Source of the DNA: Xanthobacteraceae bacterium
Lineage (GTDB): Bacteria; Pseudomonadota; Alphaproteobacteria; Rhizobiales; Xanthobacteraceae
Length of the DNA: 64,000 bases
Direction of reading: 5' to 3'
Assembly (NCBI GenBank): GCA_019745775.1
Contig: JAIESR010000096.1
Location: 62,001 to 126,000 of the forward strand
The position numbers and the translations under genes were made by a program. Every line of letters starts with the position of its first letter. Position 1 is the first letter of the stretch. Below the pieces are notes generated by a model, which was given only the letters and a program-made list of their open reading frames with translations, was not told where the DNA came from and did not search any database. Shown here in pieces: positions 16,898 through 32,045 of this stretch.

Positions 16898-17392
16898 ATG
16901 ACGTCTTCGCGGACCATGATCTTTACGAATTACGCCGAGGCGACCGCGCCCAATGCCGCGGAGCGCGCGGCGTTGACCGGATGCCCCTGGCACGACGTCA
17001 AGGCCATGCTCCGGCAGGTCGGTCTGCGTCCCACCCGCCAGCGCATGGCGCTCGGCTGGATCCTGTTCGCCAAGGGCGACCGGCACATCACCGCCGAAAT
17101 GCTCTACGAAGAGGCGGCCAAGGCCAAGGTGCCGGTGTCGCTCGCAACCGTCTACAACACGCTGCACCAGTTCACCGATGTCGGTTTGCTGCGCCAGGTC
17201 GCGGTCGACGGCTCGAAGACCTACTTCGACACCAACGCGTCGCAGCACCACCACTTCTTCGTCGAGGGCGAGAACGCGCTGCTCGACATCCCGCACACCG
17301 ACGTCGTGGTCGGCAAGACCCCGGTGCCGCCGGAAGGCTATGAAATCGCGCGCATCGACGTGGTCGTGCGGCTGCGCCGCAAAGGCCGCTGA
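16898..17392 (+). CDS. irr: Iron response regulator Irr (Fur family)
   Basis: Master regulator of heme and iron metabolism in Rhizobiales. It acts under iron limitation and is degraded on binding heme. The 164-residue protein has the N-terminal heme regulatory motif GCPWHDV (C29-P30), the Fur-type helix region LRPTRQRMALGWILFAKG, VSLATVYNTLHQFTDVGLLRQV as recognition region, and the second heme-binding motif HHH (117-119). The N-terminal motif makes it the Bradyrhizobium-type, heme-labile Irr. The ATG at 16898 was chosen (MTSSRTMI resembles known Irr starts); a GTG lies six bases upstream. A large palindromic repeat lies downstream. Confidence 0.95.
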   Translation: MTSSRTMIFTNYAEATAPNAAERAALTGCPWHDVKAMLRQVGLRPTRQRMALGWILFAKGDRHITAEMLYEEAAKAKVPVSLATVYNTLHQFTDVGLLRQVAVDGSKTYFDTNASQHHHFFVEGENALLDIPHTDVVVGKTPVPPEGYEIARIDVVVRLRRKGR

Positions 17393-17449
17393 GCTCTTCA
17401 CCAATTCTCGGTTGGATGCCCGGGTTCGTGCCGGACATTGTTGTTTTGC

Positions 17450-17652
17450 GTTCGGAGCACGGTTGCGCCGCGGGTCACCCTCCCCCTTGTGGGGAGGGTC
17501 GACCGCCTGAGTGAAGCGAGGGCGGTCGGGGTGGGGGTCGTCATTGGTGCGGACAGACTCTCCACAACAACTTCGACCCCCACCCCCCGCGCGACGCTCG
17601 CGACCCTACCCACAAGTGGGTGGGTGACCCGCGGCGCGATCCGTGTCCGAAC
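17450..17652. repeat. 203-bp imperfect palindromic element downstream of irr
   Basis: The outer arms begin GTTCGGAGCACGG and end CCGTGTCCGAAC, continuing inwards with GCGCCGCGGGTCACCC against GGGTGACCCGCGGCGC. Inside lie GGGGTGGGGGTCG and its complement CGACCCCCACCCC, so almost the whole unit could fold into one long hairpin. It fills most of the 376-base gap before the ABC importer genes. No open frame fits. It has the character of a non-autonomous, MITE-like element. Confidence 0.8.
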
Positions 17653-17768
17653 CCGAGAGCGCCTTCCTCGCAGCAAATCTGCGTCGTTGGGCCGCTTGCG
17701 CCCTGCATTCCATTGTCATCAACTCGGATTAAGGGTCGCTGACGATCCTCAAGGCCCGGGAGACATTC

Positions 17769-19112
17769 ATGATACCGAAATTCGCGCATCGCGCCGCGCT
17801 CGTCGCCGCGCTTGCCTTGGTTGTGGGTGCGGTGAGCGCCCCGAGAGCTCAGGACATCGAAGGCCGGCTCGTGATCGTCACCTCGTTCTCGAAGGACGTG
17901 ACCGAGCCCTATCGCACCGCGTTCCAGAAGAAATATCCCGGCACCAAGGTCGAGGTGCAGAACCGTAACACCAACGCGGCGGTGACCTTCATCCGGGAAA
18001 CGAAATCAAACCCGCCGGACATCATGTGGGCGTCGGCGCCGGACGCCTTCGAGGTGCTCAAGAAGGACAAGCTGCTGCACAAGTATCAGGCTAAGGCGAA
18101 GGGCATCGCCACCAAGATCGGCTCGTATCCGGTGAACGATCCCGACGGTTACTTCACCGGCTTCGCCGCCTCGGGCTACGGCATCATGTACAACACGCGC
18201 TACCTCAAGGCGAACAACATCCCGGCGCCGAAGGAATGGGACGACCTCAAGAAGCCGGTGTATTTCGGCCATGTCGGCATCTCGGCGCCGTCGCGCTCCG
18301 GCACCACGCATCTTACGGTCGAGACGATCCTGCAGGGCGAAGGCTGGGACAAAGGCTGGGCGACGCTGCTCGAGATCGGCGGCAATCTTGCGCAGGTGTC
18401 CGATCGCTCGTTCGGCGTGCCCGATGCGGTCAACAGCGGACAATACGGTCTCGGCATCGTCATCGATTTCTTCGGCCTGTCGGCGAAGGCGTCCGGCTTC
18501 CCGGTCGAGTTCGTCTACCCGACCGTGACCGCGATCGTCCCCGCCAATGTCGGGATCATCGCCAACTCCAAGAGCCCGCGCGCGGCGGAGGCTTTTGTCG
18601 AATTCCTGCTGTCGGAGGAGGGCCAGCAGATCCTGCTCGATCCGAAGATCCAGCGTCTGCCGGTGCGGCTCGATACCTACGCCAAGGCGCCGGCGGGCTA
18701 TCCCAACCCGTTCAAGGACGCCCGCCTCGCCAAGGGCATCACCTTCAATTCCGAATTGTCGGAAGCGCGCTATGAACTGCTCAATTCGCTCTACGACCGC
18801 GTCGTGACGTTCCGCCTGAAGGAGCTCAATGCGGCTTGGAAGGCGATCCAGACCGCCGAAGCAAAGCTCGGCCCGAAGGCGAGCGCGGCAGCCAAGGACC
18901 TGCTGGCGCAGGCGCGCAAGCTCGCCACGACCGTGCCGATCAGCGAGAAGGAATCGACCGATCCGTCGATTACCGGCGCCTTCCAGCCGCTGAAAGAGGG
19001 CCAGAAGGCCGCCGGCCGGCAGGCCGAGTTCGAGAGCCGCTGGGATGCGGCCGCGCTGAAGAACTACACCGAGGCGCGACAGCTGGCGGAAAAAGCGCTG
19101 ACGGCGAAGTAG
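17769..19112 (+). CDS. ABC importer solute-binding protein (ferric-iron/polyamine type)
   Basis: The 447-residue exported protein has a signal peptide ending near VSAPRAQD. Domain features are LVIVTSFSKDVTEPYRTAFQ at the start and central GVPDAVNSGQYGLGIVIDFF. SPRAAEAFVEFLLSEEGQQIL is the usual late motif of FbpA/PotD-like binding proteins. It is about 100 residues longer than FbpA because of a C-terminal helical region rich in Ala, Lys and Glu (about 350-447). It is followed by a double-domain permease and an ATPase, so it is the capture component of one importer. The substrate is not certain. Confidence 0.85.
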   Translation: MIPKFAHRAALVAALALVVGAVSAPRAQDIEGRLVIVTSFSKDVTEPYRTAFQKKYPGTKVEVQNRNTNAAVTFIRETKSNPPDIMWASAPDAFEVLKKDKLLHKYQAKAKGIATKIGSYPVNDPDGYFTGFAASGYGIMYNTRYLKANNIPAPKEWDDLKKPVYFGHVGISAPSRSGTTHLTVETILQGEGWDKGWATLLEIGGNLAQVSDRSFGVPDAVNSGQYGLGIVIDFFGLSAKASGFPVEFVYPTVTAIVPANVGIIANSKSPRAAEAFVEFLLSEEGQQILLDPKIQRLPVRLDTYAKAPAGYPNPFKDARLAKGITFNSELSEARYELLNSLYDRVVTFRLKELNAAWKAIQTAEAKLGPKASAAAKDLLAQARKLATTVPISEKESTDPSITGAFQPLKEGQKAAGRQAEFESRWDAAALKNYTEARQLAEKALTAK

Positions 19113-19120
19113 TTTCGGGT

Positions 19121-19292
19121 CTCGTGTCCCGGACGCCATAAGCGCGTTTACGCGCGTCTTTGACGCGCTATGGCAGCACGAAGTGATGCACCGCTGATCC
19201 GGGACCCCGGTTCCTGCGAACCAAGAAACCGGGTTCCCGGGTCTGCAGCGCATCATTCCGCTTCGCTTCATGCTGCGCAGCGCCCGGGAAAC
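19121..19292. repeat. Palindromic repeat unit inside the ABC operon
   Basis: It starts CTCGTGTCCCGGACGC, the same 16-mer as the left border of the GIY-YIG element at 22116. It continues with hairpin arms around GCCATAAGCGCG (19135-19146) and CGCGCTATGGC (19164-19174), then GGACCCCGGTTC against AAACCGGGTTCC, and ends near CGCCCGGGAAACG. It appears to be a diverged member of the same repeat family, lodged between the binding-protein and permease genes. Confidence 0.65.
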
Positions 19293-19349
19293 GCACAACT
19301 GACGCACCGCGTCTATCCCGTCCTGAAAGCCGCCGCTATCATCCTCCGC

Positions 19350-21077
19350 GTGTCCTCCCTGTCCACCATAGCGGTCGCAAGGCCGTCGCTCGCGGTCCGC
19401 CTCGGCGGCAGCCCGGCGCAGATCGCGATCCTCGTCGGCGTCTCGCTGTTCCTGATCGCCTTTCTGATCGTGCCGATCCTGCGCGTGATCGTTGTCGCAT
19501 TCACCGGCCGTGACGGCGGCTTCACGCTGATCCATTTCAGCGATTTCCTCGACAACGCGCTGTTGCGCGACTCGTTCTGGAATTCGATCTACGTCGCCGC
19601 CATGACGGTCGTGGTCGCGAGCCTGATCGCAGTGCCGCTCGCCACCATCATCGCGCGCTTCAATTTCCGCGGTGCGGCGCTGATCCACACCCTCGGCGTC
19701 ATCCCGCTGGTGATGCCGCCGTTCGTCGGCGCGGTGGCGATGCAGCTGATCTACGGCCGCAACGGCAGCATCAACCTCCTGCTCAACGAATGGTTCGGCT
19801 TCCGCATCCCGTTCATGGAAGGGCTGAACGGCGTGATCTTCGTCGAGGCGCTGCATTATTTCCCGTTCATCCTGCTCAACCTCTCCGCCTCGCTCTCGAA
19901 TATCGATTCCTCGATGGAGGAGTCGGCGCAGAACCTCGGCGCGCACGGCTTCACGCTGTTCCGGCGTATCGTGTTCCCGCTCGCGCTGCCCGGCTATGTC
20001 GCCGGCGCAGCGCTGGTGTTCGTGAAGGTGTTCGACGATCTCGCCACGCCGCTCCTGCTCAACGTCACCAACATGCTGGCGCCGCAGGCGTATCTGAAGA
20101 TCACCACGGTCGGCCTCACCGATCCGATGGGTTATGTGATCTCCGTGATCATGATCCTGTGCTCGCTCGGCGCCATGGCGCTGGCGGGCCTGACGCTGCG
20201 CGGACGCGACTTCTCGACCCAGCAGCGCGGCGGCGGTGGCCTCTCCCGCCGCAGCATGAGCCGCACCGGCAATCTCGCCGCCGGCGCGTTCATCGTTTTC
20301 ATCCTCCTGCTGGTGCTGTCGCCGCATATCGGCATTTTCCTGCTTTCGATCGCTACCGTGTGGTCGTTCGCGGTGCTGCCCGACGGTTTCACGCTCGCGC
20401 ACTACGCCACCGTGTTCCGCGAGTCCGGCCCGCTGATCTCGAACACCATCCTCTATTGCGGCCTCGCCGGGCTGATCGACGTGGTGCTCGGCGCATCGCT
20501 CGCCTATGTCGTGCTGCGCACCAAGCTGCCCGGCCGCAAGCTCGTCGAACAGGTCGCGATGTCGGCGGTGGCCGTGCCCGGCCTGGTGCTCGGCATCGGC
20601 TTGCTGCGCACCTACTACGACGTGACCCTGCCGTGGTCGGGTGAATCGCTGGCAACCTTCTGGTTCATGCTGGTGATCGCCTATGCGGTGCGTCGCCTGC
20701 CCTATGCGCTGGCGGCCGCCACCGCCGCCATCCAGCAGCTGCACGTGAGCCTCGAAGAAGCCGCGGAAAACCTCGGCGCCGGCAAGTTCACCACCCTCAC
20801 CCGCATCGTGGTGCCGCTGATGACCGGCGGGCTGCTCGCAGGCTTCGTCACCAGCTTCGCCACGGCGGCGGTCGAGCTCTCCGCCACGCTGCTGCTGGTC
20901 GCGCGCGCGCCGGACGCGCCGCTCTCTTACGGCATCTATGTCTACATGCAATCCGCCGCCGGCCGCGGGCCGGGTGCGGCGCTCGGCGTCATCGCCGTGG
21001 TTGTGGTCTCGATCGCCACCTACCTCGCCTATCGCGTCGCCGAGCGCGAGCGCGGCCTCAAGTCGAGAGCATTCTGA
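19350..21077 (+). CDS. ABC importer permease, two fused membrane domains (FbpB type)
   Basis: Inner-membrane channel subunit. About 575 residues with roughly twelve hydrophobic segments form two homologous halves. Each half carries the EAA loop that contacts the ATPase: EESAQNLGAHGFTLFRRIV and EEAAENLGAGKFTTLTRIV. This fused architecture is typical of ferric-iron (FbpB/SfuB) and related importers. The start is uncertain. The frame is open back to 19170, but that stretch lies in a palindromic repeat, so the GTG at 19350 just before the first hydrophobic region is preferred. Its stop codon overlaps the ATG of the ATPase gene (TGATG). Confidence 0.88.
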   Translation: MSSLSTIAVARPSLAVRLGGSPAQIAILVGVSLFLIAFLIVPILRVIVVAFTGRDGGFTLIHFSDFLDNALLRDSFWNSIYVAAMTVVVASLIAVPLATIIARFNFRGAALIHTLGVIPLVMPPFVGAVAMQLIYGRNGSINLLLNEWFGFRIPFMEGLNGVIFVEALHYFPFILLNLSASLSNIDSSMEESAQNLGAHGFTLFRRIVFPLALPGYVAGAALVFVKVFDDLATPLLLNVTNMLAPQAYLKITTVGLTDPMGYVISVIMILCSLGAMALAGLTLRGRDFSTQQRGGGGLSRRSMSRTGNLAAGAFIVFILLLVLSPHIGIFLLSIATVWSFAVLPDGFTLAHYATVFRESGPLISNTILYCGLAGLIDVVLGASLAYVVLRTKLPGRKLVEQVAMSAVAVPGLVLGIGLLRTYYDVTLPWSGESLATFWFMLVIAYAVRRLPYALAAATAAIQQLHVSLEEAAENLGAGKFTTLTRIVVPLMTGGLLAGFVTSFATAAVELSATLLLVARAPDAPLSYGIYVYMQSAAGRGPGAALGVIAVVVVSIATYLAYRVAERERGLKSRAF

Positions 21078-22108
21078 TGGCGCGCGGCGTCACCATCGAC
21101 CACGTGACCTTCGGCTACGGCGCCACGCCGGTGCTGGAGGACGTCTCGCTCGACGTCGCGCGCGGGCAGTTCTTTGCCTTCCTCGGCCCGTCGGGCTCGG
21201 GCAAGACCACGCTGCTCCGTCTCATTGCCGGCTTCGGCACGCCGACCGCGGGACGCATCCTGATCGGCGAGCGCGACGTGACGCGGCTGCCGCCCTGGAG
21301 CCGCAATGTCGGCATGGTGTTCCAGAGCTACGCGCTGTGGCCGCACATGAACGTGCGCAAAAACGTCGCCTTCGGGCTCGAGCGCCGCAAGCTCTCGCGC
21401 ACCGAGATCGATCGCAAGGTCGATGCCGCGCTCGAGCTGGTCGGGCTCTCCGCTTTCGCCGAACGCCGCCCCGCGCAACTCTCCGGTGGCCAGCAGCAGC
21501 GCGTCGCGCTCGCCCGCACCGTGGTGATCGAGCCCGAGGTGCTGCTGCTCGACGAACCGCTGTCGAATCTCGACGCGCGGCTGCGGGTCGAGATGCGCGT
21601 GGAGCTCAGGCAGCTCCAGCGCAAGCTCGGCATCACCGCGATCTACGTTACGCACGACCAGGAGGATGCCAACGCGGTCGCCGACAGTATCGCGGTGCTC
21701 GACCAGGGCCGCATCCAGCAGATCGGCACGCCGATCGAGCTCTACGACCGCCCGGCCAACCGCTTTGTCGCCACCTTCCTCGGCACCGCCAACCTGATCG
21801 AAGGCACGATCGAATCCGGCGGACGCTTTGTCTCGGACGGGATTGCGTTGGCCGACATCGCCGGCACCACAGGCGCGGCCTGCATCTCGATTCGCCCGCA
21901 GGACATTTCGGTCGGCCCGCCGGACAGCGGCATTGCCGCACGCATCGCCGAGCGCGAATTCCTCGGCAACATCACGCGCTATCACACGCAAGCCGGCGTG
22001 CAGTCGATCGTGGTCGACGTGCCGCACCGCCGCGGCGCGCCGGTACACGAGGTCGGCGAGACCATCGGGCTGATCGTCCCGCCGTCGCAAATCTCGGTGT
22101 TGAAGTAG
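21077..22108 (+). CDS. ABC importer ATP-binding protein
   Basis: The 343-residue cytoplasmic ATPase drives the importer encoded just upstream. Walker A is GPSGSGKTTLLR, the signature LSGGQQQRVALART, Walker B VLLLDEPLSNLD, and the switch histidine lies in YVTHDQEDA. Residues from about 240 onward form a TOBE-type regulatory domain (SIRPQDISVG). It shares one base with the permease stop codon, so the two are translationally coupled. The GIY-YIG/repeat element begins seven bases after its stop. Confidence 0.93.
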   Translation: MARGVTIDHVTFGYGATPVLEDVSLDVARGQFFAFLGPSGSGKTTLLRLIAGFGTPTAGRILIGERDVTRLPPWSRNVGMVFQSYALWPHMNVRKNVAFGLERRKLSRTEIDRKVDAALELVGLSAFAERRPAQLSGGQQQRVALARTVVIEPEVLLLDEPLSNLDARLRVEMRVELRQLQRKLGITAIYVTHDQEDANAVADSIAVLDQGRIQQIGTPIELYDRPANRFVATFLGTANLIEGTIESGGRFVSDGIALADIAGTTGAACISIRPQDISVGPPDSGIAARIAEREFLGNITRYHTQAGVQSIVVDVPHRRGAPVHEVGETIGLIVPPSQISVLK

Positions 22109-22117
22109 CCCGTCCTC

Positions 22118-22153
22118 GTGTCCCGGACGCGCGCAGCGCGAGCCGGGACCCAG
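22118..22153 (+). repeat. Left inverted palindrome of the GIY-YIG element
   Basis: A 36-bp hairpin-forming sequence starting GTGTCCCGGACGCGC and ending CCGGGACCCAG. It is the reverse complement of 22640-22675 with one mismatch. Confidence 0.9.
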
Positions 22154-22289
22154 CAACCTTCGTAAAAAGATCTATTGCGCTTCACGATTCTTACTCTGGC
22201 TGCCGGGTCGCGTTCCGCTCGCTATGCTCGCTTCACTTGCCCGGGACACGATATAGTCATCGCGGCACCAAGTACCGGCGTGAGCCACA

Positions 22290-22583
22290 ATGTCCGGCAG
22301 TTACTTCGTTTATATTCTCGCGAGCAAGCGAAATGGGACCTTGTACGTCGGCGTCACGAACGATCTCGTGCGCCGGATGTCCGAGCACAAAGCAAAGCTC
22401 GTTCCCGGTTTCACGCGTCAGTACGGCGTCGACAAGCTGGTCTACTTCGAAGAGTACGGATCAATTTTGGAAGCACGCGCCCGCGAGCGGTCACTCAAGC
22501 GTTGGCTGCGGGCCTGGAAGCTCGAACTGATCGAGAAAATGAATCCGGAATGGCGCGATCTGACTGACGAATTGGCGTTCTAG
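22290..22583 (+). CDS. Small GIY-YIG nuclease-domain protein
   Basis: A 97-residue protein that is a single GIY-YIG domain. The motif appears as VYI (residues 7-9) and YVG (19-21), followed by the catalytic-type arginine region NDLVRRMSEHK. FEEYGSILEARARERSLKRW contains the conserved glutamate helix. It resembles the UvrC-like, YhbQ-type stand-alone family. The ATG at 22290 is the only sensible start. The gene is enclosed by near-identical inverted palindromes, unlike any other gene in the window, and may act on those sequences. That role is inference; the alternative is a host nuclease gene that happens to be flanked by repeats. Confidence 0.85.
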   Translation: MSGSYFVYILASKRNGTLYVGVTNDLVRRMSEHKAKLVPGFTRQYGVDKLVYFEEYGSILEARARERSLKRWLRAWKLELIEKMNPEWRDLTDELAF

Positions 22584-22639
22584 CCAGCGTGCCCCAGGCG
22601 AGTGAAGCGCCGAATCCAAAAAGAACATCTTGCGAAGCG

Positions 22640-22675
22640 CTGGGTCCCGGCTCGCGCTTCGCGCGTCCGGGACAC
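22640..22675 (-). repeat. Right inverted palindrome of the GIY-YIG element
   Basis: A 36-bp sequence starting CTGGGTCCCGGCTCG and ending CGTCCGGGACAC. It is the reverse complement of 22118-22153 with one mismatch. Confidence 0.9.
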
Positions 22676-22680
22676 GGAAG

Positions 22681-23238
22681 CTACGGAACCGTCTCGTTGG
22701 GGTAGACGCCCCAGAGCCGCTCCTGCGCGATCCAGCCGTCGAAGCCGGCGCCGGTGATGTGGCACCACTTGCCGGTGCACTTGCGCACCGATGCCTGTAC
22801 GCCCGGCTGCAGCCGCGCCAACACCGCCCCGTGGTCCCCGGCAGTGCCGAACAGCGGAACCAACTCGTCCTTGTGCTTGGAGATCACCATTGCGGTGCGA
22901 CGGCCCGACAGCAGCGAGTGGTACACCCAACCCTCGGAACCTTCCCAATCACGGATGCGCCGCCAATTGTCGGACTCGGCCGTGATCTCGACCGGCAGGC
23001 CCGAGCGGGTGAACTGCCAGGTCACGTCGTGGTTCCGGGTCGGGCCGGCGCGCACGTTAACCTTGTCCGGCTTTAGGCTGACGAAGCGCGGCACCGGCAG
23101 GCCCGACGAGGCGCCGGCCGCGAGTTCCTGCGCGGTCGCGAACGGCATGGCAGCGGCAACAGCCAGCGCCAGGCCCGCGATCACTGCGGCAACGACCACA
23201 CGAAAAGAGCCGATCAACGCGACAAAACGCTGGTACAT
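22681..23238 (-). CDS. Exported SH3-domain protein
   Basis: A 185-residue protein with a signal peptide or N-terminal anchor (SFRVVVAAVIAGLALAVAAA). Two bacterial SH3-like regions follow: KPDKVNVRAGPTRNHDVTWQ with WRRIRDWEGSEGWVYHSLLSG, and a second around GVQASVRKCTGKWCHITGAG ending in GWIAQERLWGVYPNE. Proteins of this type are common in Rhizobiales and are thought to act in the periplasm or cell wall. The start at 23238 puts the hydrophobic signal at the N-terminus; in-frame upstream extension to 23439 is low-complexity. It is divergent from the dehydrogenase gene at 23418. Confidence 0.82.
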   Translation of the reverse strand: MYQRFVALIGSFRVVVAAVIAGLALAVAAAMPFATAQELAAGASSGLPVPRFVSLKPDKVNVRAGPTRNHDVTWQFTRSGLPVEITAESDNWRRIRDWEGSEGWVYHSLLSGRRTAMVISKHKDELVPLFGTAGDHGAVLARLQPGVQASVRKCTGKWCHITGAGFDGWIAQERLWGVYPNETVP

Positions 23239-23417
23239 GTTGTTGTCCCACGCGGCTACCGGTGATGCTGCGGCGATCCGTTGCAGATCGGCCGAAGTGG
23301 CAGCCCGACGCCCCCGAAAATGAAGGTGCAGTGTTGAAGAACACCGGTTAAAGAGACCTGAACGCGCCGTCGAAACCCGGGCGGCGGTGCCGGATTGCAA
23401 CACTCCGGAGCAACGCG

Positions 23418-24418
23418 ATGGCGAGACCGAAACGTCCACTCGTGGTGGTGACGCGCAAGCTGCCGGACACGATCGAAGTCCGTATGCGCGAGCTGTTCGA
23501 TACGCGCCTCAATGCCGACGACAAGCCGATGTCGCAGGCCGAGCTGGTCGAGGCGGTGAAGACCGCCGACGTGCTGGTGCCGACGGTCACGGATACCATC
23601 GACGATGCGGTCATCGGCAAGGCCGGCGATCAGCTCAAGCTGATCGCGAATTTCGGCAACGGAGTCGACAACATCGACGTCGCGAACGCGGTCGAGCACG
23701 GCATCACCGTGACCAACACGCCGAACGTGCTCACCGAGGACACCGCCGACATGACCATGGCGCTGATCCTGATGGTGCCGCGGCGGCTGGCGGAAGGCGC
23801 CTCCGTGCTCACCAACGATCGCAAATGGACCGGATGGTCGCCGACCTGGATGCTCGGCCACCGCATCTGGGGCAAGCGGCTCGGCATCATCGGTATGGGG
23901 CGCATCGGTCAGGCGGTGGCGCGCCGCGCCCGCGCCTTCGGCCTGCAGATCCACTATCACAACCGCCGCCGCGTGCCGGCGAAGATCGAGGAAGAATTGT
24001 CGGCCACCCACTGGGAGAGCCTCGACCAGATGCTGGCGCGCATGGACATCATCTCGATCAACTGTCCGCACACGCCCGCGACCTATCATCTGCTCTCGGC
24101 GCGCAGGCTCAAGCTGTTGCGGCCCGACGCCTACGTCGTGAACACCGCTCGCGGCGAGGTGATCGACGAGAACGCGCTGGTGAAGCTGATCACCGACGGC
24201 GAAATCGCCGGCGCCGGCCTCGACGTTTTCGAGCATGAGCCCGCGGTGTCGCCGAAGCTGGTGCGGCTCGCGCGCGCCGGCAAGGTCGTGCTGCTGCCGC
24301 ATCTCGGCTCGGCGACGCTCGAAGGCCGCATCGACATGGGCGAGCGCGTGATCGTCACATCAGGACGTTCCTCGACGGCCACAAGCCGCCGGACCGCGTG
24401 CTGCCGTCGATGTTGTGA
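23418..24418 (+). CDS. D-isomer-specific 2-hydroxyacid dehydrogenase (frameshifted near the C-terminus)
   Basis: NAD(P)-dependent dehydrogenase of the glyoxylate/hydroxypyruvate reductase type. It has the Rossmann motif GMGRIGQAVARRA and the catalytic Arg, Glu and His in NTARGEVID, LDVFEHEP and LPHLGSAT. After residue 313 the frame is disturbed. Adding one A at 24357 restores NIRTFLDGHKPPDRVLPSML and a stop at 24416-24418, the normal family ending. As written, the frame runs on to 24503, through the next gene's ribosome binding site and into its start codon. All catalytic residues precede the shift. It is either a real one-base deletion or a sequencing error. Confidence 0.85.
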
Positions 24419-24499
24419 TGCGTTCCGGCGCGGCAACGTCATGTTAAAGCTCGGCGTCTATTGTGGAGTACTCGAGTACTCCAGGCCGGAGGCATGCAC

Positions 24500-25021
24500 A
24501 TGAAACGACTATCCGCGGTGCTGGTTCTGTCCGCTTGCGTCTCAAGCGCCGCGCTCGCGCAAGCACCGGGACCAAGTCCCGGCGGCAAGCCGGCGCCCGG
24601 TCCGGGGGCAGCACCTGTCCCAGGTACAGGCGGGCCGGCCGAGTTTGTGCTGATGGTCTGCAACAAATCCAAGGAATTGGCTTTTGCGGCTGTCGGCTCG
24701 CGCATTCCGCAAAGCGGAGGTGGCGAACATGCCACGCGCGTTCAGGGCTGGTGGCAAGTGCCCCCAGGAGAGTGCAGCAAGATCGGCACGTTTCCAGACC
24801 CAGGCTTTCTCATTCACCTGCGTTCGCAGCGCGGCATAACCGCGACTTTCAAGGAGCGGCCCTCAGTGCCGTTGTGCGTCAACATCAAAGACGCTTTCAC
24901 CTCGACGGTTGCATCTTTCAAGCGGGACCCAAAGCAGTGCTCTGCGGAACAGACGTCGGTGATGTTTCAGATGTTCGAAGTCGGCCAGGCAAGAACCTAC
25001 ACGTTGACGCTCAACCCCTAG
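24500..25021 (+). CDS. Exported DUF1036-type protein
   Basis: A 173-residue protein with a signal peptide (MKRLSAVLVLSACVSSAALA), a Pro/Gly-rich linker (about 22-45), then a DUF1036-like domain: LMVCNKSKELAFAAVG, RVQGWWQVPPGECSKIG, and later VPLCVNIKDAF and QCSAEQ. Four cysteines after the linker may form disulfides. The function of this family is not known. The ATG at 24500 is seven bases from GGAGG; an ATG at 24494 is too close to it. It is convergent with the LLM enzyme gene. Confidence 0.8.
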   Translation: MKRLSAVLVLSACVSSAALAQAPGPSPGGKPAPGPGAAPVPGTGGPAEFVLMVCNKSKELAFAAVGSRIPQSGGGEHATRVQGWWQVPPGECSKIGTFPDPGFLIHLRSQRGITATFKERPSVPLCVNIKDAFTSTVASFKRDPKQCSAEQTSVMFQMFEVGQARTYTLTLNP

Positions 25022-25041
25022 CGGACAGGGCTACAAGCCCA

Positions 25042-26151
25042 CTACTCCGCCGCCTGCGTCGCGGTGTGGCGGCGCACGGCCGGCATCACCTCCTCGACCA
25101 GACGCCGCATCGACTCGCGGCCCCAGGCGGCGTTGCGGCCGCCCCAGTCGACGCCGGTCACCAGCAGCGTGCCGAACGGTCCGACACGCTCGCGGAACGC
25201 GATCAGCTTTGACGCCACCGTCTCCGGCGAACCGTAGAGCACGCGGGCCTCGACGATCGCGTCGACGGTCAACTCCTCGTCGCGCATGTCGGGACGCGGC
25301 TTGAGATTGGCGAGACGGCCGGAGCGCTTCAGCACCTCGTAGAGATAGCCGAAGGTGTAGCGATAGGCGCTGTCCGGCGCGAACACGCGCTCGCGCGCCT
25401 CCGCATCCGAGCCGGCGACCAGCACATAGGACGCGACCCGCCAGTCGTCGCCGCTCGCGGCGCGCCCGGCCTCGGCGCAGCCGGCCGAATATGTATTCCA
25501 GTGCGTGGCGACCACGTCGGCGCGCGCCAGCGGCGACGAGATCGGACCCCAGCCGCGCTCTGCGGCCACGCGCACCGTCGACGAGTTCGGGCTCGACACC
25601 GCCACCACCACCGGCGGCCCGCCCGGCCGTAGCGGCTTCGGCATGAAGCCGATGCCGAGCTCGCGGCTGATCGCCTTCCTGATGCCGAACTTCCAGAACT
25701 CGCCATCGAATTCGTACGGCGGGTCCTGCGCCCAGATGCGCGTGATCATGTCCATCGACTCGATCAGCATCCGGTTGCGCTTCGCGACGTCGGCGACGTC
25801 GAACAGCTCGTAGTCCGACGGCAGGCTGCCGGTGCCGATCCCGAACAGGAAGCGGCCCTGGCTCATATGGTCGAACTGCGCGACCTCGGCCGCGATCACC
25901 GCCGGATGCCGGTTCGGCAGGTTGATCACGCCGGTGCCGAAGGTGATGCGGCTGGTCTGCGGAATGAGGCTCGCCATGAACATCAGCGGCGACGGGATCG
26001 GCTCGGTGGTGGCCGAGAAATGCTCGCCGACGAACACCTCGTCGAAACCGAGCCGCTCGGCCAGCAGCACCTTCTCGGCGGTCTCGGCCATGGTGTCGGT
26101 GAGCGTCCGCGTCGGCGGATGCAGCGGCATCATGAAGAGGCCAAGACGCAT
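25042..26151 (-). CDS. LLM-class flavin-dependent oxidoreductase (luciferase-like)
   Basis: A 369-residue luciferase-like monooxygenase or F420/FMN-type oxidoreductase with a TIM-barrel fold. Family stretches are MRLGLFMMPLHPP at the N-terminus, ERLGFDEVFVGEHFS, TSRITFGTGVINLPNRHP, and FDHMSQGRFLFGIGTGSLPSD with the usual flavin-site glycine region. The substrate is unknown. The ATG at 26151 was preferred over one at 26193 because MRLGLF is the family N-terminus. It stands alone between an exported protein and a membrane glycosyltransferase. Confidence 0.88.
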   Translation of the reverse strand: MRLGLFMMPLHPPTRTLTDTMAETAEKVLLAERLGFDEVFVGEHFSATTEPIPSPLMFMASLIPQTSRITFGTGVINLPNRHPAVIAAEVAQFDHMSQGRFLFGIGTGSLPSDYELFDVADVAKRNRMLIESMDMITRIWAQDPPYEFDGEFWKFGIRKAISRELGIGFMPKPLRPGGPPVVVAVSSPNSSTVRVAAERGWGPISSPLARADVVATHWNTYSAGCAEAGRAASGDDWRVASYVLVAGSDAEARERVFAPDSAYRYTFGYLYEVLKRSGRLANLKPRPDMRDEELTVDAIVEARVLYGSPETVASKLIAFRERVGPFGTLLVTGVDWGGRNAAWGRESMRRLVEEVMPAVRRHTATQAAE

Positions 26152-26266
26152 TGTGCTGTGAGCCCGGTTCTGCCTGAAACAACGCCGGATCATAGGTTGA
26201 TGCCGACCTTGCGCAAGCGCCTAAACTCGAGGCGCGCCGGCAGGCGGCGGTCCGCCATGCAGCGAC

Positions 26267-27808
26267 TTATCGGCGCGTGGTGTTCTCGGCCACGCCGTCG
26301 GCGCAGCGCCTGAACACCAGCATCGCGTCGGCCTCCCGGACATAGGATTTCCAGATCAATCCCCCGGGAACGACGGTGGGCGCGCAATAACCGGCGCTGC
26401 GCGCGGTTGCGACGTAGTGCGCGATCTCGTCCGCCGGCAGCCCGTGATCCGAAAGCACCAGCACGTCATAGCGGCGGTTGTTGACGGCCTCGCGCCAGAG
26501 CTCGGGCGTAACGAAGGCGGGGAAAGGCTCGCTGGTGTGCCAAGCGTAGGAAGCGTCATGCGGCGCGCCGCCACGGTAGTTGGCGAACGCATTCGCGCCA
26601 AACCACGGCTGCACGGCGAATGTCTTGAAGCCGAGGGCGGCAATCCGGGCGTCAGCGCGCGCGAGCATCTGCGCCGTTGCCGGCCCGGCGGAATAGGGCT
26701 CGCGGATATCGCGCAGTGACGCGCTTGCCGTGTAGAATACATGGACGAATACGATCACCGCGACGCTCGCCACCGTGACGCGGCGCCGGACGGCGGCGAG
26801 TTCGCCAAGTGCGCCCCAGCCGACCCATAGCGCGAAAATCCAGAAGAGATAGAGAAAGCCCGCGTGCCAGGCATTCGCGTACTTCACAATGGCAAAGACG
26901 ATCAGCGTCGCGAAAACGGCGATCACGAGCACTGCGATGCCTGCGCGCTGGAACAGGAGGAAGGAGGGCGCCAGCAACAATGTGGTTATGAGGCCTCCCA
27001 CGATCACCGCGGCGACGGTCGGGGGAGATGCGCTCCATATGTCCGGACGATCGACGAACGCCTCGACGAACACCGTGATTCCACGTCGGATCTCTATGCC
27101 GTGCTCATAGAAGCTCGCATCCGGCGCGGGCCATGCCTGGAGCAGAGCCAGGCCCACGGCTGCGACATAGAGCGCGCTGCCGGCGAGGTGCGCACGCGGC
27201 CAATTTGCCCATTGCCAATTCCTCCATTGCAAAGTCCCGCTGCGCCAGATCGTGAAGAGAAATTCGGCGAACAGAAAAGCCGAGATGATGAGGCTGTGCG
27301 TGTTCGCATTCGCGCAGAAGGCAAGCAACGCGCCATAGAGCACGGGCCGGCGCAGCCGGTCGGCGAACGTCGCGGCGATCAACGGGATCGCCACGAGGTC
27401 GAGCGCGTAGCTGCGGGCGACGATGGCGTATTGATACGCCAGGAAATACGAGAAGACGATTCCGACGCGCAGCCAGTAAGGGAACGGCGCGCGCGTCAGG
27501 ATGATCCAGGCGCCGATACAGGCGAGAGCGCCACTCACCATCCAGAGGTAGGCGAACGGCAGGCCCGCATGTGAAACAAGCCAGAGCAACGCATGCCAGA
27601 TCCCCGGCGTGCCTTCATAGTGGAGCCGGTGCGCCAGCAGATCCCACAGCGTGGTATCGCGACCGAGGAGCCAGGCGTGGGCCTCATCGAACCAGGCCTC
27701 GTGCCGCGATCCGACGGTCGCGAGCAGCGCGGCAAATAGCGCCAGAACCAGGGCGGATCGCCATGGCTCCCAATCGATTTTCGAAATCGGCGCGGTGGTC
27801 GGCGGCAC
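26267..27808 (-). CDS. Polytopic membrane glycosyltransferase-like protein (GT-C fold)
   Basis: A 513-residue integral membrane protein with about ten to twelve hydrophobic segments and a soluble C-terminal part from about residue 380. Near the N-terminus, WFDEAHAWLLGRD places an Asp-Glu pair in the first periplasmic loop, as in GT-C enzymes such as the ArnT/PMT-like family 39. That supports transfer of a sugar from a polyprenyl-phosphate donor. The acceptor is unknown. The start is GTG (27808), preceded by AAAGGGG; no in-frame ATG lies close by. Confidence 0.72.
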   Translation of the reverse strand: MPPTTAPISKIDWEPWRSALVLALFAALLATVGSRHEAWFDEAHAWLLGRDTTLWDLLAHRLHYEGTPGIWHALLWLVSHAGLPFAYLWMVSGALACIGAWIILTRAPFPYWLRVGIVFSYFLAYQYAIVARSYALDLVAIPLIAATFADRLRRPVLYGALLAFCANANTHSLIISAFLFAEFLFTIWRSGTLQWRNWQWANWPRAHLAGSALYVAAVGLALLQAWPAPDASFYEHGIEIRRGITVFVEAFVDRPDIWSASPPTVAAVIVGGLITTLLLAPSFLLFQRAGIAVLVIAVFATLIVFAIVKYANAWHAGFLYLFWIFALWVGWGALGELAAVRRRVTVASVAVIVFVHVFYTASASLRDIREPYSAGPATAQMLARADARIAALGFKTFAVQPWFGANAFANYRGGAPHDASYAWHTSEPFPAFVTPELWREAVNNRRYDVLVLSDHGLPADEIAHYVATARSAGYCAPTVVPGGLIWKSYVREADAMLVFRRCADGVAENTTRR

Positions 27809-27970
27809 GCCATCACCCCTTTCTGCCGGCGCTAGACCGGCGCGATGGGGAGAGTGAATGGCAGGAAAAACTTACCAACCGGTGTGTGCAAGGATTAGGA
27901 ATACAGCCATGAGTTTGCCCTGGCGCAGGTGCACGAGGGCCGTAAGCTGCGACGCATCGAGGGGACGGAA

Positions 27971-28741
27971 ATGACGTTGACGAGGATAACGGTCGAGATT
28001 TCGCCTCGGCGCATCGGGACGGTCACGCTCAATAGGCCCGAGCGCGGCAATGCGTTCGACCAGGCCATGCTCGACGAGCTCGGCGACGGCCTCAAGGCGT
28101 TGGTGGCGGACGACGCCGTGCGGGTCGTCGTCCTGCGCGGCGCCGGCAAGCACTTCTGCACCGGTGCCGACCTCTCGTCGCGCGGACCGGGGGCCGAGCT
28201 GCGCCCGGCCGCGAAATATGCGCTGCGCGACGTGCTCGCGATCCTCGACGGGCTCTCGAAGCCGACCGTCGCGGTGGTCGAAGGCGGCGCGATCGGCGGC
28301 GGCGCCGGCTTCGTCACCTGCTGCGACGTCGCCATCGCCACCGGTGACGCCTTCTTCTCGGTCCCCGAAGTGCGCGTCGGCATGGCGCCGATGGGGATCA
28401 TGCCGTTCATGATCCGCGCCATCGGCCATCGCGCCTTCCGCCGCTACGGGCTGTCGGGCGAACGCATCCCGGCGGCAGATGCATTGCGGCTCGGTCTCGT
28501 GCACGAAATTTGCGAGCCGCCTGCGCTCGAAGCCACGCTGGCGAAGATCGCCGATGCGCTCCTCCTCGGCGCGCCGCACGCCATGACCGAGCTCAAAGCC
28601 GCCGCGGCGCGCTATGCGTCTCCCAATCTGGCGGAGATCCTCGCCGGCGTGCCGCCGCCGCACGATCCGAAATCGACGGAGGCGCAGGAAGGCATCGCCG
28701 CCTTCCGCGAGAAGCGCAAGCCAAGCTGGTATCCGGAGTGA
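27971..28741 (+). CDS. Enoyl-CoA hydratase/isomerase family protein
   Basis: A 256-residue crotonase-fold enzyme. The oxyanion-hole segments are GKHFCTGADLSS and GGAIGGGAGFVTCCDVAIA. The catalytic-glutamate region reads PEVRVGMAPMGIMPFMIRAI. It could hydrate enoyl-CoA, isomerise double bonds or hydrolyse an acyl-CoA. The ATG at 27971 follows GAGGGGAC; a start at 27929 would add 14 uncharacteristic residues. It lies 57 bases upstream of an acyl-CoA synthetase gene on the same strand, so the two probably form a small acyl-CoA catabolic operon. Confidence 0.88.
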   Translation: MTLTRITVEISPRRIGTVTLNRPERGNAFDQAMLDELGDGLKALVADDAVRVVVLRGAGKHFCTGADLSSRGPGAELRPAAKYALRDVLAILDGLSKPTVAVVEGGAIGGGAGFVTCCDVAIATGDAFFSVPEVRVGMAPMGIMPFMIRAIGHRAFRRYGLSGERIPAADALRLGLVHEICEPPALEATLAKIADALLLGAPHAMTELKAAAARYASPNLAEILAGVPPPHDPKSTEAQEGIAAFREKRKPSWYPE

Positions 28742-28798
28742 ACAACAAAGAGCCGTGAAGCAAACGACCAAAGGAAGCGATCCAAAGGAAACGACCAC

Positions 28799-30949
28799 GT
28801 GAACCTCGAAGCCTCCAAGAAGAAAGTCGAAGCACTCACGGCGCCGCGCAATGCCGTGCTGGTCGGCGCCAGCGACCGCCCCGGCAGCTGGGCGGCGCGC
28901 GTCTGGCGCAACCTGCACAAGTATCGGTTCCCCGGCCCAGTCTATTCGATCAATCCGCGGCGCGACACGATCTGGGACAAGCCCTGCTATCCCGATTTCA
29001 AATCGCTGCCGGAGCCGCCCGACCACATGGTGGTGCTGGTGCCGGCCGCCGGCGTCGCGGAATCGCTGCGCGCCGGCGCGGCCGCCGGCGCGCGCAGCGC
29101 CACGGTGTTCTCGTCGGGCTTCGGCGAAGCCTATGACGCCGAGGCCGCGCATCTCGGTCGCGAACTCGCCGCGGTGATCGCCGAGACCGGCCTCGCGGTG
29201 TCGGGCCCGAACTGCATGGGCAATGTCTGCGCGAAGAGCCGCTTCGTCACCTTCCCCGAAGATCGCATGCTGACGGTGAAGGAAGGCCCGGTCGCGATGG
29301 TGGGCCAGAGCGGCGGCATGATGCTGTTCGCCAACGGGGCGCTGAACGAGCGCGGCATCGTCGCGGAATACCTCATCACCAGCGGGAACGAGGCCGGCCT
29401 CTCGGTCGGCGACTACATCGCCTTCTTCGCCGACCAGCCGGAGCTGAAGGTGATCGTGATCTATGTCGAGGCCGTGTCCAACCTCGAGACGTTCAAGGCG
29501 GCCTGCCGCATGGCGCGCGCCTCCGGCAAGCACATCGTCGCCCTCAAGCTCGGCCAGTCGGAAGGCGGTCGCGAGGCCGCGCTCGCGCACACCGGCTCGC
29601 TCGCGGGATCGATCGAAGCGTTCGATGCGGTGGCGGGCGAGGCCGGCGTTGTGCGCGCCGACACGCTCGACGATATCGTGGAGATGACGGAGCTGCTCGC
29701 CTTTACCGGCGCGCCGAGCGGCCGCAATCTCGGCGCCATCACACTGTCCGGCGCGTTCCGCGGCCTGCTGCTCGACGGCGCCGAGAGGAACGGCCTGCAC
29801 TTCCGCCCGCTGGAGGCGGCGACGACGGAGAAGCTGGACGCGATCCTGGGTGTCGGCTCGCTGGTGGGAAATCCGACCGACGGCGGCTATGGCGTGCTGA
29901 CCAGCGCCGACAACTACATCAATTCGATCGACGCCATGCAGGCCGACCCGAACGTCGACATCGTCCTGGTGCAGGAGCAGATCCCGCGCGAGGCCGGCGC
30001 CGGCCGCGCCGAGGCTTATGTCGGCCTGCTGGAGAACTATGTCGCCACCCGCGCGAAAAAACCGATCGCGTTCTGCGCGCCCGCCTCGCACGGCCATACC
30101 GACTTCAGCCGTGCGTTGCGCGCCAAAGCGCCGCATGTCTCGTTCCTGCAGGAAGCGAACAAGGCGCTGCGCGCGATCGCTGCCGTGGCGCGGCGCGACG
30201 AGATGGAGCGGCTGGCGCGCGGCGCCGGCGGCGCGAAGCCAATGCGCACGGCGGAGCAGACCGCGCTGATCGAGCAATTGCGGGCGCGTGCCGGGCAGGA
30301 AGCCAGCGCGCTGAACGAATTCGAATCCAAAGAAGTGCTGCGCGCCTACGGCATTGCAACGCCCAGGGAAGAGGTGGTTTCATCGCTTGACGCCGCGCTC
30401 GCGGCCGCCCAGCGCATCGGCTATCCGGTCGTACTCAAGGCGCTATCGCAAACCTTGACGCACAAGTCCGATGCCGGCGCCGTCGCGCTCGACCTTGCGA
30501 CACCGGAGCAACTGCGCGCGGCCTACGACGCGATGTCGAAGAAGCTTGCCGGCGAAAAGCTCGACGGCATGCTGGTCGGCCAGTTCGTGAAGGGCGGGCT
30601 CGAGATCGTGCTCGGCCTGCATCGCGACCGCGAGATGGGACTGATCGTCATGGCCGGCGCCGGCGGCGTGCTGCTGGAGCTGATGAAGGACGTCGCGTTC
30701 TGCGCCCCGCCGGTGAGCCGCGACAAGGCGCTCGACCTGCTTGATCACACCCAGGCCGGCCGACTGATCCGCGGCTATCGCGGCAGTGCGCCACGCGACG
30801 GCGATGCGGTCGTGAATGCGCTCATCGGCCTGGGACAGTTTGCAGTCGATCTCGAAGACGTCATCGAGTCCGTCGACATCAATCCCTTCGTCGCGCTGCC
30901 GCAGGGCGGGCTCGCGCTCGACGCGCTGATCGTGTTGCGGCGGCGATAG
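28799..30949 (+). CDS. ADP-forming-type acyl-CoA synthetase
   Basis: A 716-residue fusion of the subunits of acetate:CoA ligase (ADP-forming) type enzymes. It has a CoA-binding Rossmann domain (about 10-135, with VLVGASDRPGSWAARVW), succinyl-CoA-ligase-like domains (about 150-450) with the phosphohistidine motif EAALAHTGSLAGS (H264), and a C-terminal ATP-grasp domain (about 490-716, with YPVVLKALSQTLTHKSD). Such enzymes activate or release short-chain or aromatic acids as CoA thioesters. The GTG start follows AAAGGAAACG. It is paired with the enoyl-CoA hydratase gene upstream. Confidence 0.88.
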   Translation: MNLEASKKKVEALTAPRNAVLVGASDRPGSWAARVWRNLHKYRFPGPVYSINPRRDTIWDKPCYPDFKSLPEPPDHMVVLVPAAGVAESLRAGAAAGARSATVFSSGFGEAYDAEAAHLGRELAAVIAETGLAVSGPNCMGNVCAKSRFVTFPEDRMLTVKEGPVAMVGQSGGMMLFANGALNERGIVAEYLITSGNEAGLSVGDYIAFFADQPELKVIVIYVEAVSNLETFKAACRMARASGKHIVALKLGQSEGGREAALAHTGSLAGSIEAFDAVAGEAGVVRADTLDDIVEMTELLAFTGAPSGRNLGAITLSGAFRGLLLDGAERNGLHFRPLEAATTEKLDAILGVGSLVGNPTDGGYGVLTSADNYINSIDAMQADPNVDIVLVQEQIPREAGAGRAEAYVGLLENYVATRAKKPIAFCAPASHGHTDFSRALRAKAPHVSFLQEANKALRAIAAVARRDEMERLARGAGGAKPMRTAEQTALIEQLRARAGQEASALNEFESKEVLRAYGIATPREEVVSSLDAALAAAQRIGYPVVLKALSQTLTHKSDAGAVALDLATPEQLRAAYDAMSKKLAGEKLDGMLVGQFVKGGLEIVLGLHRDREMGLIVMAGAGGVLLELMKDVAFCAPPVSRDKALDLLDHTQAGRLIRGYRGSAPRDGDAVVNALIGLGQFAVDLEDVIESVDINPFVALPQGGLALDALIVLRRR

Positions 30950-30983
30950 AACAATCGAAGCGGGATTGCTCTCTCCACCGCTC

Positions 30984-31047
30984 ATTCCCGCGCAAGCGGG
31001 AATCCAGTCTTCCTTTGCGGCGCCTGGGTCCCCGCTTTCGCGGGGAC
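30984..31047. repeat. Two short hairpins between convergent genes
   Basis: ATTCCCGC-GCAA-GCGGGAAT (30984-31003) and GTCCCCGC-TTTC-GCGGGGAC (31028-31047). They probably act as terminators or are degenerate repeat elements between the convergent synthetase and Bug genes. No T-run follows on the plus strand. Confidence 0.6.
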
Positions 31048-31067
31048 GAACGGGGAGGGTTCAGCGC

Positions 31068-32045
31068 TCAGTCCGGCTTCACGCCCGCGAATTTCACCAC
31101 CTTGCCCCACTTCTCGGTCTCGGCGGCGACGTATTTGCCGAAGTCCGCCGGCGAGCTCATGATCAGGGTGGCGCCCATCTCGGCGAACTTCGCCTTGACC
31201 GCGGGATCGGCCAGAATGTCGTTCACGGTCTTGTTGAGCTTCGCGATGATGTCGGGCGGCGTGCCGCGCGGCGCACCGAAGCCGTACCACGCGCTCGCCT
31301 CGTAGCCGGGGAGATAGTCGGCGACGGTCGGAACATCCGGCAGCAGCTCCGAGCGGGCCGTGCTGGTGACGGCGAGCGGCCGCAGCTTGCCGGCGCGGAT
31401 GTGCTGGATCGACGTCGGGATGTTGTCGAACATCACCTGCACCTGTCCGGAGATCATGTCGGTCAGCGCCGGCGCGCTGCCGCGATAGGGCACGTGGGTC
31501 ATTTGCACGCCCGTCATCATCTTGAACAGCTCGCCCGACATATGGATCGTCGAGCCGGCGCCCGACGATGCCATGCTGAGCTTGCCGGGATTGGCCTTGG
31601 CGTAGGCAATGAACTCCGGCACCGTCTCCGCCGGCACCGACGGGTGCACCTCCATGACATTGGCGAAGCGGTTGATGCCTGCGACGGGCTCGATGTCGCG
31701 CAGGTAGTTGTGATTGAGCTTGTCGAACAGCGTGGCGTTGATCGCGTTGGCGGGCGCAACGAGCAGCAGCGTGTAGCCGTCGGCCGGCGCGCGGATGACC
31801 GTCTCGGTGGCGTGATTGGTGGCCGCGCCGGGACGGTTCTCGATCACGACGGTCTGGCCGAGCCGCTCCGACATCCATTGGCCCATCAGCCGCGCGGTGA
31901 TGTCGGCCGAGCCGGCCGGCGTATAGCCGATGACGACCCTGATCGGTCGCGACGGGTAGGCTTGTGCGCTGGCGATGCGGGAGACGGCGGGCCATGCAAC
32001 GGCGGCGCCGGCCAGACGCAAGACTCTGCGGCGGGAAAGCTTCAT
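31068..32045 (-). CDS. Bug/TctC-family solute-binding protein 2
   Basis: A 325-residue periplasmic binding protein. The N-terminus LSRRRVLRLAGAAVAWPAV has a twin-arginine-like pattern. Then come YPSRPIRVVIGYTPAGSADI, ENRPGAATNHATETV and PYRGSAPALTDMISGQVQ. It is more similar to the Bug protein cut by the right window edge (SRRR signal, similar IAPAL/SAPAL loop) than to the other three. The ATG at 32045 follows GGGAGGA. It is divergent from the cytochrome c gene that opens the molybdenum-enzyme cluster, so it may supply that cluster's substrate. That link is inference. Confidence 0.9.
   Translation of the reverse strand: MKLSRRRVLRLAGAAVAWPAVSRIASAQAYPSRPIRVVIGYTPAGSADITARLMGQWMSERLGQTVVIENRPGAATNHATETVIRAPADGYTLLLVAPANAINATLFDKLNHNYLRDIEPVAGINRFANVMEVHPSVPAETVPEFIAYAKANPGKLSMASSGAGSTIHMSGELFKMMTGVQMTHVPYRGSAPALTDMISGQVQVMFDNIPTSIQHIRAGKLRPLAVTSTARSELLPDVPTVADYLPGYEASAWYGFGAPRGTPPDIIAKLNKTVNDILADPAVKAKFAEMGATLIMSSPADFGKYVAAETEKWGKVVKFAGVKPD

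Follow-up and report, generated by a model that had tools for sequence, protein, structure and literature searches.

A small GIY-YIG nuclease gene bracketed by outward-facing CGTC-type REPs, a candidate REPtron-like unit

Background

In the parts available to us of the survey by Di Nocera et al. (2013, PMC3733652), REPtrons are described as RAYT (TnpA-REP) genes flanked by GTAG REPs, and REPINs as non-autonomous dimers. In a CGTC REP, a stem stands between an unpaired tag, which is CGTC or in many cases TGTC or CCTC, and a CCA tail. Most CGTC REPs are dimers, with heterodimers in many families, and the superfamily includes the Neisseria repeat dRS3 (= CGTC-1) and the Rickettsia repeats RPE-4 and RPE-6. 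According to the same parts of the survey, these REPs 'apparently lack a dedicated transposase', none of the tyrosine transposases of CGTC-positive species is flanked by CGTC repeats, and the question of what mobilises the CGTC REPs was left open. Neither GIY nor transposase occurs in the main text of RepRanger 2025 (PMC12306157), as far as that text was accessible. The terms nuclease and GIY are absent from the accessible parts of Hahn et al. 2016 (PMC5082802), where two Bradyrhizobium REPs are described. The one paper found to contain both 'GIY-YIG' and 'repetitive extragenic', a Moraxella study (PMC9465073), has the two terms merely in a list of genes and in a cited reference. The open-access literature yielded no paper that connects GIY-YIG with REPs; preprints and most subscription papers were outside the scope of this search, and priority is not established.

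The unit described here resembles a REPtron in that REPs bracket a small nuclease gene and recur as dimers elsewhere in the genome, and it satisfies the REPtron criterion of a gene flanked by genome-dispersed REPs. It differs in its enzyme, which belongs to GIY-YIG (PF01541) and not to the HUH/Y1 tyrosine transposases, and in its hairpins, which carry CGTG/CGTC-type tags and CCA tails and not GTAG. It resembles the CGTC superfamily in a tag at one end (here one base off CGTC), a paired stem, a CCA tail and a predominance of dimers; the dimer criterion is met by 21 of 27 and 19 of 30 places with an outward partner (see below), counts to which the head/head dimer convention of the survey was not matched. 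No transposase gene is reported for that superfamily in the accessible parts of the survey, whereas a nuclease gene is associated with the repeats here. The UPF0213 proteins (1zg2, 1ywl) and Slx1 are similar in sequence profile and fold, but are not described as repeat-associated, as far as the titles of their entries tell. GIY-YIG is also a classic homing-nuclease fold. The present gene shares that catalytic fold with the GIY-YIG homing endonucleases and differs from them in being bracketed by dispersed hairpins and in having no Rfam family, including group I introns, at gathering scores in 17000-32000. The proposal of the earlier note, a unit like that of REPs and RAYTs with an unrelated nuclease, is supported by the locus and genome associations given below.

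Features of the unit

The window, i.e., the whole 64-kb stretch of DNA that was analysed, belongs to a 6.3-Mb genome in 147 contigs. The unit fills the whole interval of 572 bp between the stop codons of two convergent flanking genes (22109..22680). Its left neighbour ends at 22108 and was read from the ORF list as an ABC-transporter ATPase; its right neighbour, read as an SH3-type protein gene, lies on the minus strand with a stop codon beginning at 22681. The left REP hairpin (22117..22154, plus strand) has its tag CGTGTCC outward and its CCAG tail towards the gene, and the right REP hairpin (22639..22676, minus strand) is an inverted copy, also with the tag outward. Both were found by inverted-pair search, ssDNA folding and rule-based detection. 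The arms are 38 nt each, 97% complementary and 484 nt apart, and form the longest inverted pair among those listed for 18500-23500. Single-stranded folding of the 41-nt stretches holding them gave -15.4 (left) and -15.5 kcal/mol (right), with z values of -3.41 and -3.71 and no equally good fold in 200 shuffles. The REP reads CGT, a GTCCCGG stem and CCAG, and its start CGTG is one base off the CGTC tag.

A 97-aa GIY-YIG nuclease gene (22290..22583, plus strand) is confirmed between the inverted hairpins. It matches PF01541 with an E-value of 2.4e-18 and 66.7 bits, above the curated cut-off of 22.6, and is, on reading the ORF list, the sole credible gene between the arms. The earlier note had recognized both the lone GIY-YIG gene and the inverted, near-identical hairpins around it, and both observations hold. 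The gene is a candidate REP-associated nuclease and was assigned to a clade called GIY-A; the best named homologues of its protein are from Bradyrhizobium. The inverted-pair listing also contains a degenerate inner partner of the left REP (22229..22251, minus strand; 78% with 22116-22138), which is possibly the remains of a REP dimer. Positions 22229-22250 are in addition 86% alike to 22588-22609 in the same listing, and the latter is a degenerate inner partner on the right side (22588..22609, plus strand).

Dispersed REPs in the genome

The repeat at 19121 had been taken to occur alone. It is instead half of a gene-less REP dimer of the same type as the window unit (19121..19294, by motif match), since an inverted, degenerate partner with one mismatch to GTGTCCCGGNCGC is present at 19280-19292. 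Short motifs of the GTGTCCCGGNCGC type have four matches in the window vs 1.19 expected, a mild enrichment only. Genome-wide, CGTGTCCCGGACGCG was found at 27 places with at most one mismatch vs three for the reversed control pattern. Among these CGTGTCCCGG-type places, 21 have an opposite partner with outward tag within 800 bp and six have none. Twenty of the partners are 80-192 bp away; the remaining one, at 556 bp, is the window unit itself.

A second REP type, TCRTNCCCGCGNANGCGGGNAYCCA, occupies 137 places in this genome vs none for the reversed control, and the pattern GTCATNSCNGN{2,16}CNGSNATCCA has 76 matches. Of 30 places examined, 19 are in outward dimers, all of an ATT-type and a GTC-type unit with a spacer of 13-20 bp; because some of these places belong to one and the same dimer, the dimers number fewer than 19. 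The other places are single (3), near contig ends (4) or were not centred by the script (4). One such gene-less heterodimer, TCATTCCCGCG.. / TCGTCCCCGCG.., lies in the window at 30982..31049 (pattern match), and its two variants are the same as those flanking the second full-length GIY-A gene of the genome (L002). That gene stands between one ATT-type and one GTC-type unit, so that in L002 the spacer of a second-type heterodimer consists of the gene and some additional sequence. An extra small reading frame, read as membrane-protein-like, is found at 1280-1500 of L002, between the left REP and the nuclease gene. A partial GIY-YIG match elsewhere in the genome (L003) is without such flanks. An inverted repeat of a different family, CACCCTCCCCCTTGTGGGGAGGGTCG .. 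ACCCACAAGTGGGTGGGTGACC, is present at 17470-17635, upstream of the gene at 17769.

Association with inverted REPs

Homologous loci (80) were collected regardless of their flanks, and 78 were tested against same-size intervals of the same loci, the rest having short flanks. An inverted flank score of at least 40 was reached at 43 of the 78 GIY-A loci vs 10 of 5437 intervals, eight of these ten lying in one repetitive locus (L105). A class-wide sample was made up of the best match of 29 of 43 positive alphaproteobacterial genomes; all 29 were tested, and a score of at least 35 was found at 15 of them vs 3 of 240 intervals. The interval controls are mostly coding sequence and therefore flatter the result. 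They were replaced by a gene-based control in which both locus sets were pooled (107 of 109 used) and neighbouring ORFs were taken from a greedy call, not from a gene finder.

Inverted flanks scoring at least 35 were observed at 66 of 107 GIY-A genes vs 4 of 413 neighbouring ORFs, which contradicts the possibility, raised in the earlier note, that homologues are mostly without such borders. Hairpins with outward tags on both sides were present at 32 of 107 vs 1 of 413, and at least one hairpin at 66 of 107 vs 44 of 413. By the rule used, neither flank of 41 of the 107 genes contains a REP within 250 bp. The hairpin rule was tried with stems of 6, 7 and 8, as a stem of at least 8 misses the REPs of the window itself. 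With a stem of 7, outward REPs on both sides were found at 27 of 78 loci vs 2 of 10927 control intervals; the corresponding counts of the class-wide sample are 5 of 29 vs 0 of 505. Inward-facing pairs were found at 5 of 78 and 1 of 29 loci, respectively. A further set of 40 copies, some of which repeat earlier loci, includes 18 with inverted flanks of at least 35. Three GIY-A loci of the same genus score 50, 60 and 63, and two partial ones are unremarkable (30, 17). The association of GIY-A with inverted REPs is very likely real.

Besides Pseudomonadota, loci with REPs on both sides were found in isolates of Bacteroidota (L081, L097) and on metagenome-bin contigs assigned to Patescibacteria (L074), Fidelibacterota (L092) and Omnitrophota (L110). 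A GIY-YIG homologue of Neisseria gonorrhoeae is bracketed by dRS3-like repeats. The order dimer, gene, dimer was rejected as a rule: of the 107 GIY-A genes, 18 have REP dimers no farther than 300 bp away on one or both sides, and 2 on both.

Five Thiobacillus copies (L058, L059, L071, L084, L087) share one common locus with rule-based hairpins nearby and no inverted flank pair; these copies may be vertically inherited and domesticated.

Co-occurrence across genomes

The set of 142 alphaproteobacterial genomes comprised mostly one genome per family, a choice that corrects only in part for shared ancestry. At E 1e-15, 43 of them have a GIY-A match. At least five hits to the REP pattern were found in 28 of these 43 vs 8 of the 99 nuclease-negative genomes (Fisher p 4e-12), with fewer than five in the other 15 nuclease-positive ones. 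The reversed control pattern gave one match across all 142 genomes. When genomes were binned by size, the overlap of 28 compares with 14.6 expected, and none of 20000 permutations was as high. The borders are dispersed repeats, yet the counts by locus and by genome contradict a lack of association, which the earlier note had named as a ground for refutation.

In five of the eight REP-rich genomes without GIY-A, a profile search at 1e-5 gave no GIY-YIG match either, so the nuclease is not a prerequisite for the presence of REPs. In the other three, divergent GIY-YIG genes were found at four loci in total, two with a different palindrome on their flanks (L214, L215) and two without it (L216, L217). 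One genome (G271) contains ten diverged GIY-A genes (L236-L245), three of them with inverted flanks of at least 35 and with at least two varieties of hairpin among them.

A second clade with its own hairpin

Proteins of a second clade, GIY-B, are 32-40% identical to the window protein and are flanked by CTGAG..TCGAAG palindromes. A flank score of at least 40 was reached at 9 of 17 GIY-B loci vs 0 of 113 control intervals (17 of 18 loci were scored, L231 being left out at a contig end). The motif comparison used 112 of 114 GIY-A and all 20 GIY-B loci. CGTC-type hairpins were found at 69 of the 112 GIY-A and none of the 20 GIY-B loci, and CTGAG..TCGAAG at 16 of the 20 GIY-B and none of the 112 GIY-A loci. 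The latter motif was composed after the GIY-B flanks had been viewed, and the 16 of 20 is therefore descriptive; the fairer part of the comparison is the absence of the motif from the 112 GIY-A loci. Control intervals of GIY-A loci (2907) contained 132 CGTC-type and 21 CTGAG-type motifs, those of GIY-B loci (104) two and none, respectively.

The pairing of clade and hairpin is not perfectly clean, owing to L232. This locus is among the nine scoring at least 40. Its gene, matched by the GIY-B query, was also obtained from G214 as a GIY-A hit, and its flanks are of the GTCAT type with no CCA tail. Some motif-positive GIY-B loci are without an inverted flank pair. At the genome level the link of GIY-B with its palindrome is weaker (5 of 15 vs 8 of 127 genomes, p 0.005). 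In a tree of 118 rows the GIY-B clade was supported (100/100 for 12 rows), misread rows apart. Fourteen rows had been dropped for lacking the motif expression, some of them real YTG proteins and some wrong-strand reads; L151 and L233 are misread long branches, and with 66 of 115 inner branches open the tree is otherwise poorly resolved.

Both clades are present in the source genome, each beside its own type of hairpin. The palindrome pattern of GIY-B has 19 matches there, and two GIY-B genes were identified, L004/L234 and L005/L219; one in-frame stop interrupts the L005/L219 gene. A GIY-B-type palindrome, CTGAGG..CTCGAAGG, lies inside the window at 46641-46682 (G000:C140:108641-108682).

Empty counterparts and signs of movement

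Empty sites in relatives, which the earlier note had suggested looking for, were found at two loci, with neither junction base-exact. The own-genus search covered eight genomes including the source genome. In G006, of the same genus, the flanking stop codons are 29 bp apart (L121) vs 572 bp in the window, with no REP and no nuclease. A search of 149 genomes yielded 29 other loci with the downstream gene (L121-L149); both flanking genes are kept at L121 alone, which is too diverged for a base-exact reading of the junction. In Bradyrhizobium, L184 lacks the element of L037, 568 bp being replaced by 25, and the flanks on the two sides show identities of 97.2 and 97.6%. Beyond this replacement, about 75 bp more differ between the two intergenic regions, and owing to this variability no target duplication is readable. 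Neither a target-site duplication nor a base-exact empty site was found at the two empty counterparts (L121, L184). The spot of L037 holds other sequence in L186, L188, L189 and L196.

The similarity of two copies at different loci (L034 and L037) covers roughly the REP-bounded stretch and stops there. In two copies of one assembly (L050, L063) the likeness ends near the REPs, with the contig of L050 ending at the REP. The closest pair seen within one genome, two copies in G233 (L265/L266) that lie amid further repeats, is 83% alike over 591 bp; hence no recent jump was seen.

Proposed mechanism and alternatives

The unit is probably a small REPtron-like mobile element, an outward pair of CGTC-type REPs with the gene of a structure-specific GIY-YIG nuclease as spacer; the cutting and the movement are inferred. 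The REP pair would form a hairpin or cruciform, which the GIY-YIG protein probably recognizes, an inferred step. The nuclease would then nick its own REP beside the tag, and host repair or replication would copy the REP-bounded segment to new intergenic sites; the cleavage and the copying are likewise inferences. As a result dimers would spread, and the gene would spread more rarely. To our knowledge, GIY-YIG enzymes do not make the covalent, rejoinable intermediate of HUH transposases, and for this reason the joining step must come from the host. The gene-less REP dimers, the dispersal of which is observed, would by analogy be its non-autonomous relatives, in the position that REPINs have towards RAYT REPtrons. 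Dispersal of REPs by the nuclease is regarded as the best reading and is moderately favoured, in the absence of activity data. It rests on the association with outward REPs by locus and by genome, the match of clade and hairpin family, the dispersed dimers, the lack of a PF01797 match in the source genome, the two empty counterparts and the conservation of the protein; the GIY-A genes with no REP nearby, the REP-rich genomes without GIY-A, the locus L232 and the lack of a target duplication or recent jump count against it.

As the main alternative, the gene would home into dimers that are already present. The nuclease would cut a REP dimer, the gene would be copied in by break repair with the REPs as homology arms, and the REPs would spread by other means. 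L002, which sits at the short-spacer position of a gene-less dimer with the same two end variants, fits this sequence of events, as does the fold itself; the match to TIGR01453 is weak (22.6 bits vs a cut-off of 56). Also in favour of homing, L188 has a gene-less dimer of a different hairpin, CGTCATTGCGAGCGCAGCGAAGCAATCCAG, at the L037 site (1310-1560). Homing alone does not explain why a high REP load is commoner in nuclease-positive genomes, and it is regarded as unlikely while remaining worth considering.

The conservation and modelled structure of the protein agree with the REPtron-like reading and bear as well on another possibility, in which a domesticated host nuclease polices hairpins by trimming or resolving REP cruciforms, and the flanking REPs regulate its gene. 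Y8, Y19, R29, E66 and N85, which we take to be the catalytic residues of the GIY-YIG superfamily (two Tyr, Arg, Glu and Asn), all fall in columns that do not vary across 32 aligned sequences. Values of dN/dS are 0.035-0.095 for nine pairs; with dS of 0.64-2.5 these ratios are rough, and the GIY-A gene is, as inferred from the alignments, under strong purifying selection. The AlphaFold2 model of the window protein has a pLDDT of 92, and its nearest Foldseek matches are the UPF0213 protein 1zg2 (E 1e-4), then 1ywl and Slx1 (E about 0.01), with TM-scores of 0.5-0.6. According to the title of a structure entry, Slx1-Slx4 processes branched DNA. The UPF0213-like and Slx1-like fold, the selection and the occurrence of REPs in some genomes without GIY-A would suit a host nuclease; its scattered presence (a match at E 1e-15 in 43 of 142 genomes), the multiple copies in some genomes (ten in G271) and the empty counterparts at two loci speak against it, and make it quite improbable.

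REPs are intergenic and abundant, and L186 and L189 with their other inserts mark the L037 site as a hot spot for insertion, so that REPs might merely gather round any small intergenic gene and the link be incidental. Among neighbouring ORFs shorter than 600 bp only 1 of 149 has outward hairpins on both sides, vs 32 of 107 GIY-A genes, and the hairpin differs by clade; an incidental link is hardly credible. Equally hard to maintain, for all the resemblance of the REP-plus-gene architecture to REPtrons (PMC3733652, accessible parts), is that RAYT (HUH) transposases move the REPs with the nuclease gene as cargo, because a search for Y1/RAYT genes with PF01797 gave no match in the source genome (5 of 14 control genomes match) and the tyrosine transposases of CGTC-positive species are, in those same parts, not flanked by CGTC repeats.

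Extending the REPtron-like reading, small GIY-YIG proteins could be dedicated REP mobility enzymes parallel to RAYTs with unrelated chemistry, each clade having a hairpin family of its own (CGTC-type with GIY-A, CTGAG..TCGAAG with GIY-B), the pairing being both-sided in at least five phyla, and the proteins and hairpins together possibly accounting for much of the palindromic repeat load of RAYT-less genomes; the case for this generalization is evenly balanced. A nuclease that tracks CGTC REPs across genomes and clades makes the mobilisation question directly testable. If true, the generalization would assign a role to a large group of small genes whose sole annotation is 'GIY-YIG nuclease family protein', and would point to an origin of REP-type parasites with two or more unrelated enzyme folds.

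Several other assignments were tried and rejected. An anti-phage defence protein (0 PADLOC families at E 0.01), phage cargo (1 of 50,697 phage records matching) and plasmid cargo (35 of 72,556 plasmid records, some of them megabase records that look like chromosomes) are not supported, and neither is an RNA family or intron, with no Rfam match at gathering scores in 17000-32000. On plasmid p1 of Planktothrix agardhii (L183), a GIY-YIG homologue lies between the gene of an MmeI-type restriction enzyme and DISARM drmA, in flanks with a weak inverted score of 36.
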